A stretch of DNA of 64,000 bases, from the NCBI GenBank assembly GCA_002699025.1, contig PABA01000075.1, positions 26,247 to 90,246 of the forward strand, written 5' to 3'. Origin of the DNA: Sandaracinus sp. Its GTDB lineage: Bacteria > Myxococcota_A > Polyangia > Polyangiales > Houyiibacteriaceae. The notes under the pieces were generated by a model. The model was not told the DNA's origin. It did not search any database and saw only the letters and a list, made by a program, of their open reading frames with translations. A program made the translations under genes and the position numbers. Below are positions 48,705-59,779 of the stretch, piece by piece; position 1 is the first letter of the stretch, and every line of letters starts with the position of its first letter.

Positions 48705-50852
48705 TCAGCGCGCCTCGAGCGCGAAGGCGCGGACGCGGCCGACGTCGCGGGCGGCGTGGTCGATCACCCGGAGGCGCCAGGGGCCGCGGCCGTCGGTGCC
48801 GGCGAAGCGATCGGTCTCCACGTCGAGGTCGAGGTCGGTCGCGGAGCGGCCCTCCCGGTCGTGGAGCACGACGATGCGGCCGGCGTGCTCGAGGCGCACC
48901 TCGAGGTCACCGCGCCAGCTGTGCTCGACGGCGAGGCGCACGCGGACGCGCTCGGCCGCCGCGCCCGGGCCCTCGAGGACGAGCTCGACGCCCGTGGGGT
49001 CGTCGTCGGGGATCGCGACGGGATCGCCCTCCCAGCGGGCGGACCAGGCCTCGGCGGGGGGCGGCGCGTCGCTCGGGCGGATGGTGAGACGGACACGCTC
49101 GAGCTCGCCGACGTCCGCGCGGGCCTCGTCGGCGACGCGGAGCGTCCAGACGCCCTGGCTCGTGGAGCCGGCGAAGAGGTCGGTCTCGAGATCGAGGACG
49201 AGGTCGTCGGCGCCGCCGCCGGCGCGCGCGTGCAAGGGCCAGATGCGCCCGTCGTGCTCGAGCTCGACGCGGAGGTCGCCGCGGTAGCTGTGGCGGATCG
49301 AGAGCTCGGCGCGGACCGTGCCCACGACGAAGGCGCGCTCGGAGGAGAAGGTGAGGGTGGTGCCGCGGGCGTCGGCGTCCGGGATGGCGCGGGGCGTGAC
49401 GTCCTCGAAGCCGAGGGCGTCGGGCGTGGGCTCGGGGTCCGGCGTGGGGGCGGGGTCGGGCGCGGGTTCCGGGTCGGGCGCGGGTTCCGGGTCGGGCGTG
49501 GGGTCCGGGTCGGGCGTGGGTTCCGGGTCCGGCGTGGGTTCCGGGTCCGGCGTGGGGTCGGGGTCGGGCGTGGGGTCGGGGTCGGGCGTGGGGTCGGGGT
49601 CCGGCGTCGGCGCCGGCTCGCCGCCGAGGTTCGCGCGGATCCACGCCAGGTCGAGGGCCACGTCGCGCTCCACCCGCGGCGCCACGGTCACGTCCCGATC
49701 CTCGAGGTAGGAGAGGTTGTGGAAGTCGAAGGTGAGCGGGTTGAGCTTGTGGCAGCTCGCGCAGCTCGTGTGCGGGACCAGGCGCTCGCGCCGGTCGGCG
49801 ATGACCGCGCCGAGCCGCTCCCGATCGCCCGCCTCCAAGAGCACGCTCGCCTCGATGGCGTCGCGCTCCAGCGTCGGCAGCGCCGCGTGCAGCGCCTCGT
49901 CGTCCCGCCCCTGGCTCGCGACCTGCGCGAAGCCGAAGTCGAAGAGCTCCCGGCCGTCGTCGGGCGCCGTGAGGCGAATCGGCACCGGCCGGATCGCGCC
50001 CTCCTGGCCCTCGAAGGCCACGAAGATCCAGGCGTCGAGGTGCGCGGGCTCGCGCCCCTCGGGGAGGCTGAACGCGGTGAGCTCCCGGAGCGCGCGCGGC
50101 GCGGCGTAGCGCTCGAGGAAGCGGACGACGCGCGCCCGGAAGAGCTCGGCGCTCGCCGCGTCGAAGGTCTCGGGGCGCGCGGCGAGCCCCTCGAAGGCCG
50201 AGCGCGGGAGCCCCTCGCCCCGGAGCGCGACCGCGGCCTCGACCAGCGCGCGCGCGGCCGCGTCCCGCTGCGCGACGAAGGTCGCGCGCTCGGCGCTCGT
50301 CAGGCGGCCGCCCTCGCGGAGGCGCGCGATCCACGCCCGCACGCGCGCCGCCGTCTCCGCGTCCGCCGTGCGCTCGGGGGCGACGTCGTAGAGCGCGTGG
50401 ATCGCGCGGTCGTCGGCGAAGGCGGGCGAGAAGCGCGCGTGGATGCGCTCGTCCTCGAGGACCGGCTGCCAGACGAGGCGCACCTCGGGCCAGCACAGCG
50501 CCTCGGTGTCCGGGCCGAGGGCCGGCTGGAGTGGGCTGCAGGGCGCGACGCGGAAGGAGACCAGGCGCCAGTCGCCGTAGCGGTTCTCGTGCTGGAGGGC
50601 GTCCTCGGCGTCCGTTCCGTCGAAGGCGCGCTCGACGGCGCGGTACCAGCTCTCCGGGAGGGCCCGCCCCGCGGTGCCGAGCGAGGCCTCCGCGTGCACG
50701 GGGGCGTCGTCGATCAGCGGGAGGATCACGGCGAGGTCCCGGGGGGCGACCTCGTCGGGCTGGAGCGCCTGCTTGGAGGACGCCGAGGGGGCCTCGGGGG
50801 CGCTCGAGCAGGCGAGCATCAGGAGGAGGAGGGAGCGCGTGGCCGTTCGCAT
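48705..50852 (-). CDS. lipoprotein with CxxCH motif and two C-terminal P-domains
   Basis: Start placed at the ATG at 50852 so that the signal peptide MRTATRSLLLLMLAC is complete (lipobox LMLAC); a longer in-frame start at 50900 exists. The 715-residue product has a 400-residue N-terminal domain of unknown type that ends in HTSCASCHKLNPLTFDFHNLSY, a single c-type-haem-like CxxCH motif, then a linker of repeated PDPDPTP/PDPEPTP units, then two proprotein-convertase-type P-domains (IRHSYRGDLRVELEHDG... and VEHSWRGDLEVRLEHAG...). P-domains usually bind or stabilise secreted proteases; here they stand alone. Envelope protein, role unknown. Confidence 0.82.
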   Translation of the reverse strand: MRTATRSLLLLMLACSSAPEAPSASSKQALQPDEVAPRDLAVILPLIDDAPVHAEASLGTAGRALPESWYRAVERAFDGTDAEDALQHENRYGDWRLVSFRVAPCSPLQPALGPDTEALCWPEVRLVWQPVLEDERIHARFSPAFADDRAIHALYDVAPERTADAETAARVRAWIARLREGGRLTSAERATFVAQRDAAARALVEAAVALRGEGLPRSAFEGLAARPETFDAASAELFRARVVRFLERYAAPRALRELTAFSLPEGREPAHLDAWIFVAFEGQEGAIRPVPIRLTAPDDGRELFDFGFAQVASQGRDDEALHAALPTLERDAIEASVLLEAGDRERLGAVIADRRERLVPHTSCASCHKLNPLTFDFHNLSYLEDRDVTVAPRVERDVALDLAWIRANLGGEPAPTPDPDPTPDPDPTPDPDPTPDPEPTPDPEPTPDPDPTPDPEPAPDPEPAPDPAPTPDPEPTPDALGFEDVTPRAIPDADARGTTLTFSSERAFVVGTVRAELSIRHSYRGDLRVELEHDGRIWPLHARAGGGADDLVLDLETDLFAGSTSQGVWTLRVADEARADVGELERVRLTIRPSDAPPPAEAWSARWEGDPVAIPDDDPTGVELVLEGPGAAAERVRVRLAVEHSWRGDLEVRLEHAGRIVVLHDREGRSATDLDLDVETDRFAGTDGRGPWRLRVIDHAARDVGRVRAFALEAR

Positions 50853-51050
50853 GGCGCGCGAAGCTGTGGGCCTGATCGGCGCGCTGCAAGCGAGCCGCAT
50901 TCAAGCCGTGGGGGCGCTCACGGAGCCCGCCGCGCAGCCTCGAGCTCGGGTCGCCGCGCGCGCTGCGAGGGCGTGATCGGGGGCGCCGGCGACCGCCGTG
51001 AGAGCGCCTCGTCCCCGTGAAACGGGTCCGCCTCGGAGGACGGGGTCGTC

Positions 51051-51170
51051 CGCGTGCGTCCGCGTGCGTCCGCGTGCGTTCGCGTGCGTCCGCGTGCGTT
51101 CGCGTGCGTCCGCGTGCGTTCGCGTGCGTCCGCGTGCGTTCGCGTGCGTTCGCGTGCGTTCGCGTGCGTC
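51051..51170. repeat. 12 x 10-bp tandem repeat (CGCGTGCGTY)
   Basis: Twelve uninterrupted decamers CGCGTGCGTY from 51051 to 51170; only the last base varies (C C T C T C T C T T T C). It lies in the 407-base divergent gap between the P-domain lipoprotein and the small protein at 51260. Ten bases equal one helical turn. Followed by GGTCCGTTTTTTCC at about 51180. Confidence 0.95.
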
Positions 51171-51245
51171 CGCGGCGCGGGTCCGTTTTTTCCGGGTGGG
51201 CACACGCTCGAAACAATGAGGTCATCGACGGCGCGCGAGTTTCGG

Positions 51246-51778: not shown

Positions 51779-53212
51779 CTACCCGTCCGGGTCGCCCGTG
51801 CGCAGCCGGCTCGCGAGCAGGGGCCCCCCTTCGGCCAGGACGCGGCTCGTCTGACCCGCGAGCCACTGCAGCCGGTCGATGAAGCGGTGGTCGTGCTCCG
51901 GGGTCTCGAGGTGCGCCAGCTCGTGGAGCACCACGCCGAGCGTGTGCGGGTCGAGCAGGTCGTCGAAGCGGAGCGGGCCGCGGACGTTGAAGCTGAGGAT
52001 CTTCGCCTCGGCGTCGCACGTGGCGTCCTCGAGGAGCCCCGCGTCGGAGGGGTCGCGGGCGAAGAAGCGCACGCGCACGACCCGGCCGGCGACGCGCCGG
52101 GCGAGCCAGCGGACGGCCTCGGCGAAGCGGCGCTGCGTCTCGTCGGGCTCCACCTCGGCGCCCCCGAACTCGGCGGCGCGGCGCCGCACGTAGTCGTCGG
52201 CCGTCTCCACGACGCGGCCGAGGGCGAGGTAGGCGCCGTGGCTCACGCTCGCGGCGTCGATGACGTGGGCGCCGAGCTGGCGGGCGCGGTCGTTGGCGCG
52301 GCGTGTCCCCCCGAGGACGGCGCCGCGCGGGTAGGCCCGGCTCACGTAGGCGTCGAGGACGGAGGTCTTCACCGGGAAGCGGCCGATCACGTCGTGCACC
52401 CAGTCGGCGCGGAGGTCCTTGGTCTCGAGGTAGCGGTGGATCATCGACTCGAGCAGGAGCGCCTTGAGGCGGAGCTCGAAGCGCTCGGGCACGCCGTCGC
52501 GGTCGCCGCGCAGGGGGACGCGCTGGTGCACGTCGACGTGCCAGGGGACGTCCCAGGCCTGGAGCGGCACGCCCATCTCGAAGAGGTGCGGGAGCTGGCC
52601 CGGGCGCGGCGCGTAGAGGGCGACGCTGGCCTGGCCGGTGACGGCCCGCTCGACGCCGCCGACGAGCTCGACCGTCTCGAGCTCGCAGGAGCTCAGGGTC
52701 AGCACGCCGTCGGGGCGGCGGACGGGCTGGCCGTCGACGCGGAGCGAGGTGCCCTTGGGGGCGATGCAGAGGCGGAGGACGCGCCGGGCCTCCTCGAGCT
52801 CGTCCGGATCGAAGCGGCGCGTGAGGACGATGCGGGTCCCGGCTCGGCGCTCGTTCGGCTCCTCGCGGCGGCCCGCGGCGTCGAAGAGGACGGTCGTGCC
52901 GACGGTCTCGACGCGGGCGCGCTCCATGGCGGCGATGAGCTCCTTCAGGCCGCGGCCGAGGCGCCCGCGCTTGGCCGGGTCGCCGCGCTTGTCCGAGAGG
53001 AAGACGGTGTAGACGAGGCGCCCGTCGGCGAAGCCCTCGCTGGCGTCGTCCTCCACGTGGATGGCGCGCTCGTCGAGGGTGACGCGGACCGAGCGGGCGG
53101 CGGCGTCGAAGGCGTTCTGGACCGCCTCGAGGAGGAGACGGCCGAGGGGGCGCGAGCGGGAGCGCTGCTGCCACCCCTCGTGGGAGAGCTCGAACCAGTC
53201 CGGACGGGCCAC
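51779..53212 (-). CDS. GHKL ATPase fused to a C-terminal HExxH zinc-peptidase-like domain
   Basis: Start at GTG 53212, with a strong GGGAGG six bases upstream. The 477-residue protein has a GHKL (Hsp90/MutL-type) ATPase domain at about 20-140: N-box LLLEAVQNAFDAAAR (Glu29, Asn33), DD at 55-56 and a glycine-rich lid GRLGRGLKEL at 83-92. The middle part (about 205-300) has FEMGVPLQAWDVPWHVDVHQRVPLRGDRDGVP, which I recall from phage-encoded rIIA-like GHKL proteins. The C-terminus has VVLHELAHLETPEHDHRFIDRL, a HExxH site (430-434) with further His at 440 and 442, as in YgjP/WLM-type peptidases. An ATPase-protease fusion of unknown role; not linked to an operon. Confidence 0.83.
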   Translation of the reverse strand: MARPDWFELSHEGWQQRSRSRPLGRLLLEAVQNAFDAAARSVRVTLDERAIHVEDDASEGFADGRLVYTVFLSDKRGDPAKRGRLGRGLKELIAAMERARVETVGTTVLFDAAGRREEPNERRAGTRIVLTRRFDPDELEEARRVLRLCIAPKGTSLRVDGQPVRRPDGVLTLSSCELETVELVGGVERAVTGQASVALYAPRPGQLPHLFEMGVPLQAWDVPWHVDVHQRVPLRGDRDGVPERFELRLKALLLESMIHRYLETKDLRADWVHDVIGRFPVKTSVLDAYVSRAYPRGAVLGGTRRANDRARQLGAHVIDAASVSHGAYLALGRVVETADDYVRRRAAEFGGAEVEPDETQRRFAEAVRWLARRVAGRVVRVRFFARDPSDAGLLEDATCDAEAKILSFNVRGPLRFDDLLDPHTLGVVLHELAHLETPEHDHRFIDRLQWLAGQTSRVLAEGGPLLASRLRTGDPDG

Positions 53213-53492
53213 GGGTACCTCCCAGTATGGACCACGCCCCCGGGCTCCGCCTTGGGCCGGTCCCCCGCGTCGGGCTCCGATCCGATGACGCGCCGCGGCA
53301 CGAGGGCCCGGGTCGGACGCGCTCGGGAGTGAGACGCGTTCGCGGGAGGGCGCGGAACGGTTGCGTTTTCGGGCGCCGTCTTGAGAGAATGGCGCCCAGC
53401 GGCGCGAGGTATTCGAGGGGGCCCGCTCCCGCTCGCTCCGCGCGAGCCGGCGCGCGCCGGTCCGACCGACGCTGCGAGAGGAAAAGCTTTTC

Positions 53493-54014
53493 ATGGCGGC
53501 TGCGAACGAGATCATCTGCACGATCTGCGGGGCGAAGAACGACCCCTCCGCCGAGCGCTGCACGGCCTGCGGCGCGAAGATCGAGGACCTCAGCTCCCGG
53601 GAGCTCACCGCCGAGGAGCAGGCGGCGCGGCGCTACCAGCAGGACAGCTTCGAGTGGAAGTGGGTCGCCATCGCGTTCCTCATCTACGCGACGCTCCAGG
53701 GCATCGCGCTCGTGGCCCTGCCGATGGTGATCGAGGCCTACGACCCGCAGGGGCTCCCGGGCCTGCTCATCTCCGCCGGCGTGTGGTTCGTGGGGGGCAT
53801 CCTCGTGGGCTGGATCTCGCCCGGGAAGACCTTCATCGAGCCGGCCGTCGGCGCGCTGATCGCCGTCGTGCCCACGCTCCTCTGGCTCAACCACATCGCC
53901 GACGTGTACGAGCTGAGCCTCCTCGCCAACATCACCGGCGGCATGATCGGCGTGATGGTGACGCTGCTCGGCGGCTTCATCGGCGAGAAGATCCAGATGT
54001 CGACGCGCGGCTGA
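53493..54014 (+). CDS. zinc-ribbon membrane protein
   Basis: A 173-residue protein with AGAGGA upstream. N-terminal zinc ribbon ICTICGAKNDPSAERCTACGAKI (two CxxC pairs at about 9-12 and 25-28), a charged helix, and four transmembrane helices at about 52-73, 85-105, 113-130 and 140-165. Such proteins are common and uncharacterised in this group. The 280 bases upstream include TTGCGT-N18-GAGAAT at 53361-53390 as a weak promoter candidate, with an inverted GGCGCC pair around it. Convergent with the next gene, 90 bases away. Confidence 0.8.
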   Translation: MAAANEIICTICGAKNDPSAERCTACGAKIEDLSSRELTAEEQAARRYQQDSFEWKWVAIAFLIYATLQGIALVALPMVIEAYDPQGLPGLLISAGVWFVGGILVGWISPGKTFIEPAVGALIAVVPTLLWLNHIADVYELSLLANITGGMIGVMVTLLGGFIGEKIQMSTRG

Positions 54015-54104: not shown

Positions 54105-55550
54105 TCACTCCACGTCCGCGGTGGCCGCGCGCGTCCTCCGTCCGGGGTCCAGCTCCTCCCAGGCCTCGTCGAGGAGGCCGTCGGGGCCGTCCGTCTCGAT
54201 GACGCGCACCCGCCGCCGGGACCCGCCCGGCCGGGCGTCCAGCGGCTGGGCGTCGAGTGGCTGGGCGTCGAGTGGCTGGGCGTCGAGCCGCTTCCCGGTC
54301 GGTCCGAGCTCCCGCGCCGGGTCCTCGGCGGCGCGCTCGGAGAGGGCGAGGAGCGTGGCGTCCTTCACCGCGCCGGCGGCCAGCTCGCGGAAGGCCTGCG
54401 CGAGCGCCGGGTCGACGACGCTCCCGGCGAGCTCCGCGCAGCGCCGCCTCGCCTCCTCGGGCGCGATGGCCTCCAGCGCGAGCGCCGCTCCCACGCGCCG
54501 CGCGGCCGGCGCGCTCGGATCCTCGAGCACGTCCAGCACCTGCCGCTGGGGCACGCGGGCGCTCCGGTAGTCGGCGGCGCCGCAGACCGTCGCGAGGTGC
54601 TTGCGCCAGGCCGCCGCCGTCCGGCCCCGGCGGTCGAGGAGCGCGACGGGCGCGCTCGGGCGGATCGCCATGGCCTCCTCGAGCCGCTCCGCCGCCGCCG
54701 CCGCCTTCGCCCAGTCCGTGTCGCCGAGGTCGATCTCCTCGGTCCAGCCGTCCGTGCGGAGGATCTTCAGCGCCTTCGCCGTTCGGTCGAGCCAGGCGCG
54801 CCGGATGTGCCCGTGCTTGAGCTCGCGCCACTTCCCCTGGTGCTGCCAGCGCAGGCCGTCCGCGCCGATCTCCACCGGGCCGGTCTTCAGCGCGCGCGCA
54901 GCCAGCAGCACCAGGGCCACGGTGCCGAGCTCGCTGATGGCGAAGACGGGCCAGGACCAGATGAGCATCACGCCGAACATCAGCACGCTCGGCACGAGCA
55001 GCCACCCGATGGCCTTCCGGCCCTCGCTCTCGAGGCGCTCGAGCCGGACCGTCCGGCGTCGCGCGTCGAGGCCCACCGCCTCGAGCAGCTCGAGCCCCTC
55101 GGCCACGTCGGCGACCTCCACGGTCCACTCGTCGGCGTCCGTGTGGAGCGTGACCTCGACCGTCTCGCCCACGGGGGCGACCCAGCCCTCCCGGAGCGTC
55201 TCGCGCGGCACCCGTACGCCGCCGATGCGCACGGCGCCGTCTTCGATGCGCACCTCCCCCGCGCCGCGCGCCCGCTGCCCGCGCCGCCAGACGACGAAGG
55301 CGCCGATGCCGAGGGCGAGCGCGCCGAGCGCCAGCAGCTCGGCCGTCGTCTCGGGCACGCGCGGGCCGGTGTTCGGGGTCCCCTCGATCAAGCGCTCGTA
55401 GGGGTCGCTGACGAACAGGCGCTGCACCACCCCGTCGAGCGCCGCGCCGAGCCCGGCGAGCGGGAGGCTCAGGCCGAAGAGCGTCTTGGCGAGGCGGCGG
55501 CGGAGCCGGCGGATGGCGACGCTGACGAAGCGCACCCACCCATCATGCAC
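54105..55550 (-). CDS. paralogous membrane protein A (PH-like, unknown function)
   Basis: A 481-residue protein, GTG start at 55550 not certain. Two pairs of hydrophobic helices (about 25-50 and 68-90; then about 190-240) separate two small beta domains that look like PH-type modules (GEVRIEDGAVRIGGVRVPRETLREG... and TGPVEIGADGLRWQHQGKWRELKHGHIRRAWLD). The C-terminal part (about 340-430) has a helical module with RVPQRQVLDVLEDPSAPAARRVGAALALEAI, shared with two neighbours on the same strand. Near the C-terminus are four LDAQP units. Function unknown; the shared module suggests a locus-specific family. Confidence 0.78.
   Translation of the reverse strand: MHDGWVRFVSVAIRRLRRRLAKTLFGLSLPLAGLGAALDGVVQRLFVSDPYERLIEGTPNTGPRVPETTAELLALGALALGIGAFVVWRRGQRARGAGEVRIEDGAVRIGGVRVPRETLREGWVAPVGETVEVTLHTDADEWTVEVADVAEGLELLEAVGLDARRRTVRLERLESEGRKAIGWLLVPSVLMFGVMLIWSWPVFAISELGTVALVLLAARALKTGPVEIGADGLRWQHQGKWRELKHGHIRRAWLDRTAKALKILRTDGWTEEIDLGDTDWAKAAAAAERLEEAMAIRPSAPVALLDRRGRTAAAWRKHLATVCGAADYRSARVPQRQVLDVLEDPSAPAARRVGAALALEAIAPEEARRRCAELAGSVVDPALAQAFRELAAGAVKDATLLALSERAAEDPARELGPTGKRLDAQPLDAQPLDAQPLDARPGGSRRRVRVIETDGPDGLLDEAWEELDPGRRTRAATADVE
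54233..54292 (-). repeat. 15-bp in-frame tandem repeat, four units
   Basis: Four 15-bp units at 54233, 54248, 54263 and 54278 encode the pentapeptide LDAQP near the C-terminus of paralogue A; the middle two are identical. Confidence 0.88.
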
Positions 55551-55686: not shown

Positions 55687-56819
55687 TCAATCGTCGGCGA
55701 GCCGCTCGGCGGTCTCCTCCTGGAGCGCGTCGTCGGCCAGCTCGACGAAGGCCCGGGCGAGGTGGGGATCGGCCACCGCCTCGGCGAGCTCGGCGGCGCG
55801 GCGTCGGGCCAACTTCGCGCTCTCCGGGTCGCCGCTCTCGACCAGCGCCAGCGCGGCGCCGAGACGTTGGTCCGGCGGCGCGCCGTCGTCGTCGAGCGTC
55901 TCGATGACGCGCACGCGGGGCACGCGCGGGCTCCGCAGGCCGCCGGCGAAGAGCTTCTGGAGCTCGGCCTTCCACTCGGCGAGCGAGCGACCCCGCCGAC
56001 CGAGCGCCTCGAGGCGGGCGGCCTCCTCGGGGCGGAGCCGGGCGAGGGCCCGGGCGACCCGCGCGCGCACGGCCTCGCGCAGGGCCGGGTCGACGGGGCC
56101 GAAGGGGATCCGCTCGATCCCGTCGTCGGTGTGGAGGAGCAGCGTCGCCCCCTCGGTGGTGATGGCGCGGAGGTCGCGGAAGGAGACGAAGCGATCCTGG
56201 CGCTTCTCGCGCCAGGCGAGGCCGTCGGCGCCGACCTCCACGTCGCTCGGCTGGATCGCGAAGAGGATGCGCATCCAGACGGCGATGCCGAGGGCCGGCA
56301 GGGCGAAGAAGGCGGCCACGCTGTCGAGGAGCTGGGCCGAGACCATCCAGAGACCGAAGATCCACGGGAAGATCAGGACGCCCGCGAGGAAGCTCGTCAG
56401 AAAGGTGGTCCCGCGGCGAGGTGGCGGAGCTCGGGCCTCCCCGGCGCGAGGGGCTCGCTGCGGACGGCGCCGGTGGCGATGGAGGCGAGCGGGACGCGCA
56501 CCTCCCGGGCGCCGACGCGGAAGACGAGCGCGCCGCCCTCCTCGCGCACCGCCTCGCCGGGGGGCGCGGTCCGGCGCCAGCGTCGCCCGCCCAGCCAGAC
56601 CAGCCCCGCGCCGACGAGCGCGAGGAGGGCCGCCCAGGCGGTGCCCCGGCCGAGGGCGCGCACCCACTCCCAGGTGCTCCCCCGGACGAAGGTCGAGCCG
56701 ATGCCGAAGAGCGCCGTCGCCGCGAAGGCGCGAACGCCGACCTTGGCGAGGCGCCGCTGGAGCCCGTCGCGGATGCGGCGGAGCGCCTTGCCGAAGCGGG
56801 ACCGGGAGGGCGCGCCCAT
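55687..56819 (-). pseudogene. paralogous membrane protein B, frameshifted with internal loss
   Basis: The N-terminal part is read in one frame from ATG 56819 to a stop at 56397 (LQRRLAKVGVRAF..., one membrane region, REVRVPLASIATGAV), and the C-terminal part continues in another frame down to 55687 (TTFLTSFLAGVLIFPWIFG, VEVGADGLAWREKRQ, RVPRVRVIETLDDDGAPPDQRLGAALAL). Compared with the paralogue at 58542, the frames meet at about 56400-56420, where roughly 40 residues (about 120 bases) between the first beta domain and the second membrane pair are absent. One deletion not divisible by three would explain both. Alternatives: an assembly error, or two separately translated proteins. TAGAAC stands five bases before the ATG. 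Confidence 0.7.
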
Positions 56820-56889: not shown

Positions 56890-58545
56890 TCAGCTCGCGC
56901 GGCTGGCGAGCCAGCGCCGCAGCGCGTCCAGGGGCCGCGCGTTGAGCACGTCCTCGGCCGTGAGCCCCGCGCGCCGCGCGACCGCCACCCCGTGCTCGAG
57001 GTTCGCGAGCTCGCCCATGGAGTGCGCGTCGGCGGCGATGGAGACGGGCACGCCGCGGGCCTTCGCCATCGCGAGGTGCGCGGCGGAGAGGTCGAGGCGG
57101 GCCGGGTTCGCGTTCAGCTCCACGGCGCAGCCGCCCTCCACGCAGGCGTCGAGCACGGCGGCCATGTCGACGTCCGTGGGGGCGCGCCCGAGCAGGAGGC
57201 GCCCCGTGGGGTGGCCGAGCACGGCGGCGCGCGGGTGCCGCGCGGCGTTCGCCAGCCGGCGCGTGGCGGCCTCCCGGTCCTGCGCGTAGCGCCGGTGCAC
57301 GGACGCGACGACCACCTCGAGCTCGGCGAGCACGTCGTCCGCGTAGTCGAGGGCGCCGTCCTCGAGGATGTCGCTCTCCACGCCCGTCAGGAGGGTGCAC
57401 GCGCTCCCCTCGGCGTTGAGCTCGGCGATCGCTTCGCGCTGCGCGCGGAGCCGCTCGACGTCGAGGCCGCGCGCGTAGAAGGCGCTCACGCTGTGCTCGC
57501 TGATGCCGAGGTAGCTCAGGCCGGCGGCGGCGGCGGCGTCGCGCATCTGCCGCAGCGTGTGGGCGCCGTCGGAGGCGGTGGTGTGGTTGTGCAGCGCGCC
57601 CCGCAGGTCCTCGCGGCGCACCAGCGGCGTGCGCGCCTTCCCGGCCGTGACCAGGGGCACGCCCGGCTCGCGGCGCTCCGGCGGCGTCGGCGCGAGGCCC
57701 AGGGCGTCGTAGACATCCTCCTCGCGCTCGGCCTCGAGGGCCTCGAGCTCGACGCCTCGCTCCGCCGCGCGCGCGCGGAGCGCCTCGAGGTGCGCTTCGC
57801 TGGCGCTCCGCTGGAGCAGGGCCCAGCCGAAGGCGCCCGGGCGCACGTGCACCCGCTCCACGGCGTCGGCCGCGCCCTCGTCGGTCGAGCCCGCGCCAGC
57901 GGATCCCGCGCCGGCGGATCCCGCACCGGTGGCGGCCGCCGCGTCGGGGGGCGCGGTGGTGACGATGGGCATGGCCTCGACGAGCTCCATGCCGCGCCGG
58001 AGCGCGCCGCCCACCTCGGCCCGCCCGTGCTCGCGCAGCGCGCGCAGCACCGGGCGGACGAGGGCCCAAGCCTGGTCGCGCCGGCGCTTGCCCGCGCTCT
58101 CCCGGAGCCGCGCGATCTCCGCGAGCACCTTCTGCTGCGTCTTCGCGCCGAAGCCCTTCAGCTCGACGAGCCGGTTCTCCCGGCAGGCCTGCTCGAGCTC
58201 CGCGAGGCTGGCGACGCCGAGCGCCTCCCAGAGCGCCTTCACCTTCTTCGGGCCGAGGCCCTTCACCTTCCGCAGCTCGAAGAGCCCGGCGGGGAGGTCC
58301 GCCTCCAGCTCGTCGAGGAGCGCCGGGCGGAGATCGTCGAGCAGGTCGGCGACGAGGGCCGCCGTGGAGCGCCCGACGCCCTTCAGCTCGGTCAGCCGAC
58401 CCTCCTGCGCGAGAAGGTGCAGATCCTCGTCGCTCTGGCGCAGGGCCCAGGCGGCGCCGCTCCAGGCGCGCGCTCGCCGGTCGCCCTTCATCTCGGCGGC
58501 GAAGGCGAGGCGCTGGAGCGCGCGGACGATCTCCTTCCGCCTCAC
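56890..58545 (-). CDS. PolX-like HhH/PHP protein with degenerate polymerase domain
   Basis: Start at GTG 58545 in a GTGA overlap with the upstream paralogue gene; 551 residues. An HhH/lyase-like helical region at about 1-160 (ELKGVGRSTAALVADLL, KVKGLGPKKVKALWEALG, ELKGFGAKTQQKVLAEI) is followed by the family-X nucleotidyltransferase region (GALRRGMELVEA at 180-191) that lacks the GDxD catalytic aspartates and is replaced by a Gly/Ala/Ser-rich stretch. The PHP phosphoesterase domain at about 315-540 is intact: HNHTTASDG, GISEHS, GVESDI, ASVHRR, GHPTGRLL, VELNANPARLDLS and IAADAHS. Expected to keep 3-prime nuclease or phosphatase activity but not polymerase activity. Confidence 0.88.
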   Translation of the reverse strand: MRRKEIVRALQRLAFAAEMKGDRRARAWSGAAWALRQSDEDLHLLAQEGRLTELKGVGRSTAALVADLLDDLRPALLDELEADLPAGLFELRKVKGLGPKKVKALWEALGVASLAELEQACRENRLVELKGFGAKTQQKVLAEIARLRESAGKRRRDQAWALVRPVLRALREHGRAEVGGALRRGMELVEAMPIVTTAPPDAAAATGAGSAGAGSAGAGSTDEGAADAVERVHVRPGAFGWALLQRSASEAHLEALRARAAERGVELEALEAEREEDVYDALGLAPTPPERREPGVPLVTAGKARTPLVRREDLRGALHNHTTASDGAHTLRQMRDAAAAAGLSYLGISEHSVSAFYARGLDVERLRAQREAIAELNAEGSACTLLTGVESDILEDGALDYADDVLAELEVVVASVHRRYAQDREAATRRLANAARHPRAAVLGHPTGRLLLGRAPTDVDMAAVLDACVEGGCAVELNANPARLDLSAAHLAMAKARGVPVSIAADAHSMGELANLEHGVAVARRAGLTAEDVLNARPLDALRRWLASRAS

Positions 58546-59720
58546 GTCGCCTCGCCCAGCCGCTCGGCCGTCTCTGCGCGCAGCCGATCCTCGGCGAGCT
58601 CCTCGAGGGCGAGCGCGAGGTCCGGGTCGGCGCAGCTCCGGGCGAGCTCCGCGACCCGGGCGCGCACCACGCCCTGCTCGTCGTCGGCGGCGAGCGCGAG
58701 GGCGGCGCCCAGGCGCTGGTCCGCGGGGGCGCTCGCGTCCTCGAGGGTCTCCAGCACGCGGGCGCGGGGCACGCGCGCGGCCCGGTAGCTCGAGCCGGTC
58801 TTCAGGTCGGCGACCCACTCGTCGAAGCGGCGCCCGCGGCGCGCGAAGCGGTCGGCGTCGGGGCGCTCGCCCACGCCGGCGAGGCGGGAGACCAGGCGCT
58901 GCACGGCGCGCTGCACGCCCGGTCGCACCGAGCCGAGGTCGATGCGGCGGGTCCGTTCGTCGGTCTCGAGGACCAGGTCGCCGCGCTCGAGGCGGGCGGC
59001 GCGGATCGCGCGGTAGGGGAGGAAGACGGGCCTGCCCTCTCGCCAGGCGACGCCATCGGCGCCGATGTCGAGGGGCGGTGGCCCGAACGGGTCGCGGGAC
59101 TCGAGGCCGACGCCGAGCGCGAGGAGGGCGCAGGCGAGGGCCGTCAGCGGGTCGGGCCAGGGGGGCGCCGCGCCGAGGCCGAGCTGCCCGAGGAGCAGGG
59201 CCAGGGCGCCGCCGGCGACGGTGCTCAGGGCCAGGAGCGTGCCGACGCCGACGTGACGCTCGATGCGGACGCGGCGCTGCTCGGGCGCCAGGCCGAGCTC
59301 GGCGAGGAAGGCCTGGCCGGCCGCCTCGTAGGGCGCCTCGACCTGCCAGAGGTCGCCGTCGCGGGTGCGGAGCTCGACGGTGCAGCGGGGGTCCTCGGCG
59401 CGGGGGCTCGGGACGAGCAGGCCGCTCTCGAGGTCGGCGAGGGGGAGCTGCGTCTCGTGCCCGCCGCGGACGATGGTGAGCCGATCGCCCTCCACGCGGA
59501 GGCCTCCGGGGAGCTTGCGGCGGCCCTCGGCGCCGAGGGCGGCGGCGCCGGCGAGGGAGGCGAAGCCGAGGGCCGAGAGGACGTCGACGAGGGGGGCGTC
59601 CACGTGGATCGAGGCGAGGGCCAGCGCCACGCTCGCGCCGAGGCCGCCGAGCCCCGCGTGGACCAGCCAGCGCTGGGTCCGACGTGCGACGCGGCGCACC
59701 ACGGGGGAGAGGAGGGCCAC
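58542..59720 (-). CDS. paralogous membrane protein C (PH-like, unknown function)
   Basis: Start placed at GTG 59720 because TACCCT stands six bases upstream; an in-frame GTG at 59762 is the alternative. The 392-residue product has the same plan as paralogue A: N-terminal basic segment (VVRRVARRTQRW), paired hydrophobic helices, a beta domain (LTIVRGGHETQLPLADLES...ELRTRDGDLWQVEAP), a second helix pair, a second beta domain (LDIGADGVAWREGRPVFLPYRAIRAARL), and the C-terminal module ARVPRARVLETLEDASAPADQRLGAALALA. It is translationally coupled to the PolX-like gene (GTGA). Function unknown. Confidence 0.8.
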   Translation of the reverse strand: MALLSPVVRRVARRTQRWLVHAGLGGLGASVALALASIHVDAPLVDVLSALGFASLAGAAALGAEGRRKLPGGLRVEGDRLTIVRGGHETQLPLADLESGLLVPSPRAEDPRCTVELRTRDGDLWQVEAPYEAAGQAFLAELGLAPEQRRVRIERHVGVGTLLALSTVAGGALALLLGQLGLGAAPPWPDPLTALACALLALGVGLESRDPFGPPPLDIGADGVAWREGRPVFLPYRAIRAARLERGDLVLETDERTRRIDLGSVRPGVQRAVQRLVSRLAGVGERPDADRFARRGRRFDEWVADLKTGSSYRAARVPRARVLETLEDASAPADQRLGAALALAADDEQGVVRARVAELARSCADPDLALALEELAEDRLRAETAERLGEAT

Positions 59721-59726
59721 GGAGAA

Positions 59727-59732
59727 AGGGTA
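59727..59732 (-). promoter_or_regulatory. -10-like hexamer of paralogue C
   Basis: TACCCT on the minus strand six bases before the GTG at 59720, the same hexamer and position as at the gene starting at 44407. Confidence 0.4.
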
Positions 59733-59779
59733 GGCGCTCCGCGTCCCCCCCGCACGAGGCACGGGCCTGTGCGCGAAGA

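Follow-up and report, generated by a model that had tools for sequence, protein, structure and literature searches.

A GHKL-type ATPase joined to a predicted Wss1-like zinc protease in Sandaracinus sp. and in relatives from bacteria, plasmids and phages

In a window of 64,000 nucleotides from Sandaracinus sp. (assembly GCA_002699025.1, contig PABA01000075.1; "the window" denotes this whole stretch throughout), a gene on the minus strand, 51779..53212, encodes a protein in which a GHKL ATPase of the Hsp90/MutL type is followed by a middle domain and by a predicted Wss1-like zinc protease. At the level of sequence and structure model, the order of the three domains, an intact and conserved nucleotide site and a predicted Wss1-like fold bearing a conserved HExxH...H site are clear, and the pairing of the ATPase with the predicted zinc protease was kept in more than 400 relatives that we examined from bacteria, plasmids and phages. 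The reading that we favour, tentatively, is that the protein may be an ATP-gated protease acting on protein that is probably stuck on DNA.

Domain organization of the window protein

The gene and its features are listed from the start codon side.

51779..53212, minus strand: whole gene (GHKL ATPase, middle domain, HExxH metallopeptidase-like domain), 477 amino acids, GTG start at 53212
53218..53223, minus strand: Shine-Dalgarno-like GGGAGG in the sequence, 5 nucleotides ahead of the GTG start
52763..53212, minus strand: GHKL ATPase domain, about residues 1-150 (sub-threshold HATPase_c/HATPase_c_3, sacsin-type model, fold match)
53105..53128, minus strand: N-box E29-D36 (E..QN..D), with E29, N33 and D36 invariant across subfamilies
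52943..52969, minus strand: G2/lid region R82-K90 (RGRLGRGLK), with R82, G83, R84, G88 and K90 invariant or nearly so
52178..52762, minus strand: S5-like/Hsp90-middle-like domain and linker, about residues 151-345
52496..52525, minus strand: QxxPxxxxRD motif, Q230-D239, with Q230, P233 and R238 kept in all three subfamilies
51782..52156, minus strand: Wss1/WLM-like minigluzincin domain, residues 353-477
51893..51925, minus strand: predicted zinc site H430-E431-x-x-H434-x5-H440 (HELAHLETPEH, residues 430-440), invariant in the alignments

The full-length structure model reached a predicted local distance difference test (pLDDT) value of 90.2. The ATPase part carries the N-box (E29..QN33..D36), G1 (D55..G60) and G2 (RGRLGRGLK) motifs of the GHKL superfamily and matched its Bergerat-type fold in the structure comparison; the complete N-box and lid read from the sequence in an earlier note on this DNA are all present and invariant across subfamilies. 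The C-terminal domain places an HExxHx5H site, as in WLM/Wss1-like proteases, on a predicted minigluzincin fold. Its separate fold model was confident, and Wss1 entries were its closest structures and best structural rows. H440 occupies what we take to be the third-ligand position of the Wss1-type HExxHxxxxxH motif. The note had also pointed to extra histidines near HELAH: H440 is indeed invariant but H442 varies among homologues.

Conservation of the two sites

With the window protein as query, a protein search scored 7993 candidates and placed 197 relatives at E<=0.001; the best 120 were aligned with the query as the first subfamily. Two of these, P0002 and P0086, are fragments of the query itself at 100% identity, and P0002 and P0110 end before the HExxH. 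H430, E431, H434 and H440 were identical in the 119/119 rows that reach them, as were E29, N33, D36, D55, R82, G83, R84 and K90 in every row reaching them. For the second subfamily, a search with a relative from Rhodovastum scored 7992 proteins and returned 3310 of them at E<=0.001, of which 120 were examined; we conclude that the family is large. The HExxH was found in all 122 second-subfamily proteins examined, with the third histidine in 121 at the spacing used by our script and in 122 in the aligned column. For the third subfamily, a search with a relative from a cyanobacterial plasmid returned 288 proteins, of which 120 were examined; the site was present in 121 of 122 proteins of this subfamily, the exception (P0358) being truncated.

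The three subfamilies shared the same invariant residues at a mutual identity of about 25%. Only 24 positions were invariant across 31 representatives, and these include E29, N33, D36, K75, R82-R84, G88, K90, E212, G214, P216, Q230, P233, R238 and W271 together with H430, E431, H434 and H440. Since both sites were retained over such divergence, we argue that both are in use. The earlier proposal that a GHKL ATPase is fused to an HExxH metallopeptidase-like domain is thus borne out: the HExxH, whose loss in homologues would have spoken against it, is conserved there, and the ATPase residues, which might have been absent from most of them, are present.

Two other explanations bear on the C-terminal site. 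The window is full of long spurious open reading frames on both strands, and the HExxH could be a chance occurrence in an ordinary GHKL protein, or the reading frame itself spurious in G+C-rich DNA. This is refuted by the conservation of the site in hundreds of homologues and, with a confident separate fold model whose nearest structure is Wss1, we give it practically no credence. Alternatively, the protein could be an Hsp90-like remodelling ATPase whose C-terminal domain binds zinc or peptide without cutting, as a client-binding or dimer module replacing the Hsp90 C-terminal domain. A site without catalytic function should tend to lose its glutamate, but E431 is as invariant as the histidines, and the site was degenerate in only one (L129) of the 79 viral loci reaching it (see below), so that this explanation appears improbable.

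Profile libraries and known systems

In Pfam, the window protein gave only matches below the cut-offs, to HATPase_c (19.6 bits, cut-off 26.4), YgjP-like (18.8, cut-off 26) and WLM (18.5, cut-off 26). The C-terminal domain alone scored 20.9 bits with WLM, still under the curated cut-off of 26, and we therefore call it Wss1-like and not a member of the WLM family. The sacsin N-terminal ATP-binding model matched at 1.7e-7 (31.6 bits, cut-off 50) in the NCBIfam library scan, and the PHROGs matches were to unnamed families only. In a PADLOC scan of the window protein only, no whole-protein defence model fitted, the best match being TmtA with 20.2 bits over residues 27-92 of 477, in the ATPase part only. 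No model in Pfam, NCBIfam, PHROGs or PADLOC thus spans the window protein, the matches being partial and mostly sub-threshold. In the relatives scanned, Pfam, PHROGs and NCBIfam reached the ATPase part only, save for one weak YgjP-like match, and Pfam HATPase models exceeded their cut-off in P0126 and P0123.

As far as titles and the starts of abstracts tell, none of the open-access papers listed in our searches describes a fusion of a GHKL ATPase with an HExxH protease, which, with the lack of a spanning model, agrees with the suggestion that the architecture was undescribed. Both domains are of known kinds; what is new is that they are combined in a broad family that has no dedicated model. 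Nothing was found in the open-access literature on a link of YgjP with SPRTN. For jumbo phages, passages of one article describe separate SprT-like peptidases and a vWA-metallopeptidase fusion, and these passages do not mention a GHKL-HExxH pairing (PMC7824862).

The window protein resembles the Wss1/WLM proteases and SPRTN (SprT) in its predicted C-terminal fold and HExxH...H site. According to passages of another article, Wss1 and SPRTN cut DNA-bound proteins, and Wss1 has no ATPase in its own chain and associates with the separate ATPase Cdc48 (PMC4559962). The window family, in contrast to yeast Wss1 and its separate Cdc48, has the ATPase in the same chain. Hsp90, TRAP1 and HtpG possess a C-terminal dimer domain of their own where the window protein has its protease-like domain, and membership of the Hsp90 family is contradicted both by the lack of any match to Pfam HSP90 (PF00183) in the window protein and by the Wss1-like C-terminal domain. 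A profile of 8 HtpG proteins aligned from the N-domain only to column 152 (A4), 172 (A3) or 214 (A6). The QxxPxxxxRD motif of the family resembles the catalytic-loop motif LPLNxSRE of the Hsp90 middle domain, and hhalign paired it with HtpG without significance (E 0.13); we did not retain an equivalence with the Hsp90 catalytic arginine, the likeness being one of motif only. MutL, MORC and topoisomerase II ATPases also carry their own C-terminal domains in the place of the protease-like domain; the MutL set in the HtpG/MutL profile test was a single sequence, which makes that comparison thin.

The FtsH-type AAA+ zinc proteases likewise unite an ATPase and an HExxH protease in one chain, but these are built on an AAA+ ring with a membrane anchor, whereas the window protein has a GHKL-type ATPase and no membrane-length hydrophobic stretch in its sequence. 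Phage T4 rIIA shares an N-terminal GHKL ATPase and an occurrence in phages, and rIIA-named models turned up in the viral structure search. Orthology with T4 rIIA was rejected: the hhalign probability was 0.7% over 96 columns of the ATPase only, rIIA (725 amino acids) has no HExxH, and no rIIA-named PHROG was among the PHROG matches of the window protein and the relatives scanned. The earlier hint at phage rIIA-like proteins therefore held for the phage connection, since members of the largest subfamily found occur on viral contigs and on a record of 485 kb that was deposited as a phage, but not for an identity with rIIA.

Distribution and locus in myxobacteria

Close relatives were found in Sandaracinaceae and kin. 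Strong matches occurred in 9 of 57 near genomes, the own genome included (a tenth, G019 at 2e-4, was left out of the count), and, in a sample of 377 genomes from across the phylum, in 8, again with the own genome and leaving out 26 genomes with weaker matches (E 1e-6 to 1e-3, ATPase part only). When the phylum was scanned with A2 at E<=1e-10, matches came from 5 of 188 genomes, none of them new. A tree was built from 58 chosen rows, with midpoint rooting (an arbitrary root) and a bootstrap that had not settled; in it, the myxobacterial clade was single (support 100/99), the two cyanobacterial rows were placed separately, and within the second subfamily the viral members were intermixed with the others.

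The head-to-head neighbour at 53493-54014 encodes a zinc ribbon with hydrophobic, probably membrane, helices and had no Pfam family above the cut-off. In 9 of 12 myxobacterial loci (L012 and L047 being near-identical) the two genes lie side by side. The neighbour itself occurs in 52 of 57 genomes, and 43 of these lack the ATPase-protease gene. At six loci, chosen for having this neighbour in genomes that lack the gene, no trace of the latter was seen there, two of them (L179 and L181) extending less than 1 kb past the neighbour on that side. The neighbour is thus a core gene mostly found without the ATPase-protease, and we take the association as positional and not as evidence of a partnership; as the neighbour is core, the ATPase-protease gene is an accessory gene at a stable spot.

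Several further observations were made in these genomes. In G043, 10.9 kb including the gene were duplicated at 99.9% identity (L048 3900-14776 and L049 1-10877); one copy lies at the very start of the single contig, and this is probably an assembly overlap. The own genome (G000, assembly 96% complete) gave an HSP90 match of 25 bits only and no full HtpG, a strong match being found in 9 of the 22 genomes searched. In the window, three predicted proteins that look alike by eye (54105-55550, 55687-56667 and 58542-59762, minus strand) lie near a PolX/PHP-type polymerase gene and had no Pfam match at E<=0.01. An open reading frame at 48705-50900 carries P-domains as well as a tract of PDPDPTP repeats; next to it, at about 51000-51200, is a short-period DNA repeat whose minus-strand reading frames read RTHANARERT.

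Plasmids, phages and viral contigs

A tblastn search against plasmids and phages returned seven records, six plasmids and the 485-kb record deposited as phage, at 26-30% identity; all matches stopped by residue 358, and the C-terminal HExxH...H was found beyond the BLAST match in all 6 records that were translated. On viral contigs, 163 stretches encode relatives, none of which was recovered with the window query alone, and 80 of the 163 formed our viral set. These are not 80 independent cases, given the near-copies L058/L059, L071/L072, L107/L109 and L067/L114 and given L070, which shares its C-terminal sequence with the protein of the Rhodovastum plasmid. The HExxH was present in 78/80 loci, L125 being cut by the contig end and L129 having a degenerate SELAH; the third histidine stood at the script's spacing in 74/80, and four loci had the HExxH without it. 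The N-box pattern was matched in 74/80, and the other six retain E, N and D with the Q substituted.

Among 20 viral records, the terminase models PF03237, PF17289 and phrog_2, the last presumably the terminase large subunit, matched in 1, 2 and 10, respectively (11/20 together), including records of 485, 435, 416, 407 and 331 kb. Because phrog_2 also matched in 11 of 14 cellular control genomes, this is soft evidence, and part of the records may represent other elements or be fragmentary. No fixed partner gene was seen among the 80 loci. The commonest neighbour family was recombinase-like (15/80, mostly at a repeated spacing, which suggests related contigs), followed by a DNA helicase family (5/80) and DNA polymerase and topoisomerase-like families (4/80 each).

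A divergent variant with 27% identity, HEVSH and a later histidine (L142 5001-6389, on a 113.8-kb viral contig) suggests that further subfamilies exist. On another viral contig, a second GHKL-looking protein adjoins a family member (L059 10306-11751); it shows by eye an EExxH-like stretch near its C-terminus and matched phrog_8203 (6.6e-20) and phrog_6077, both of unknown function, and no Pfam family. The family member on a Rhodovastum plasmid has SIR2 and HerA anti-phage-associated genes (L037 1782-4813 and 8010-9461) at a distance of 3-6 kb. On Picosynechococcus plasmids (L038 7388-13859 and L041 5386-10663), the gene of the GHKL/HExxH protein is flanked by those of a diadenylate cyclase (DAC domain in Pfam, 1.3e-29) and a CHAT protein, all on one strand, in what looks like a second-messenger-linked conflict cassette; nothing was found in the open-access literature linking diadenylate cyclase with CHAT.

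These data bear on the leading rival reading, a conflict protease of mobile elements, according to which the members on phages and plasmids would recognize host defence or takeover targets in an ATP-driven manner and cut them, and the myxobacterial gene would be captured or defensive. The presence of the largest subfamily on viral contigs, six plasmid records and the 485-kb phage record, the intermixing of viral and other members in the tree, the proximity of one plasmid member to SIR2 and HerA and of the members on cyanobacterial plasmids to the diadenylate cyclase and CHAT genes, and the patchy occurrence beside a core gene in myxobacteria are all in its favour. Nevertheless, no PADLOC family fits the window protein, the viral contigs offer no fixed partner, and the terminase matches are mostly those of phrog_2. 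The defence context that the earlier note would have sought among the neighbours did not appear either, none of those in the window being a defence gene by Pfam. We regard such a role as possible but rather unlikely.

Discussion

The favoured reading remains that of an ATP-gated protease. GHKL clamps of the Hsp90, MutL and MORC types close on ATP binding, and by likeness to them the window protein would dimerize through its ATPase part, with ATP binding closing the clamp. Closure would then open the protease or hand the substrate to it, zinc being bound at the predicted H430/H434/H440 site, so that the clamp would shut around a protein, probably one lodged on DNA, and cleave it. The least certain element is the substrate: a DNA-bound or DNA-crosslinked protein is proposed by analogy, because the protease resembles Wss1 and SPRTN and because related ATPases have the habit of clamping DNA.

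To our knowledge, the known ATP-dependent proteases are all built on AAA+ rings. It is conceivable, although we would not count on it, that the family represents the first class of GHKL-driven proteases, a one-chain bacterial and phage counterpart of Wss1-Cdc48 that strips or degrades proteins fixed on DNA and that large phages would use to rid their genomes of host or crosslinked proteins. If true, regulated proteolysis would gain a second engine in a protease run by a clamp of the gyrase/Hsp90 type. The family is in any case a testable candidate, in phages and bacteria, for dedicated proteolysis of DNA-protein crosslinks or for use as a protease weapon.
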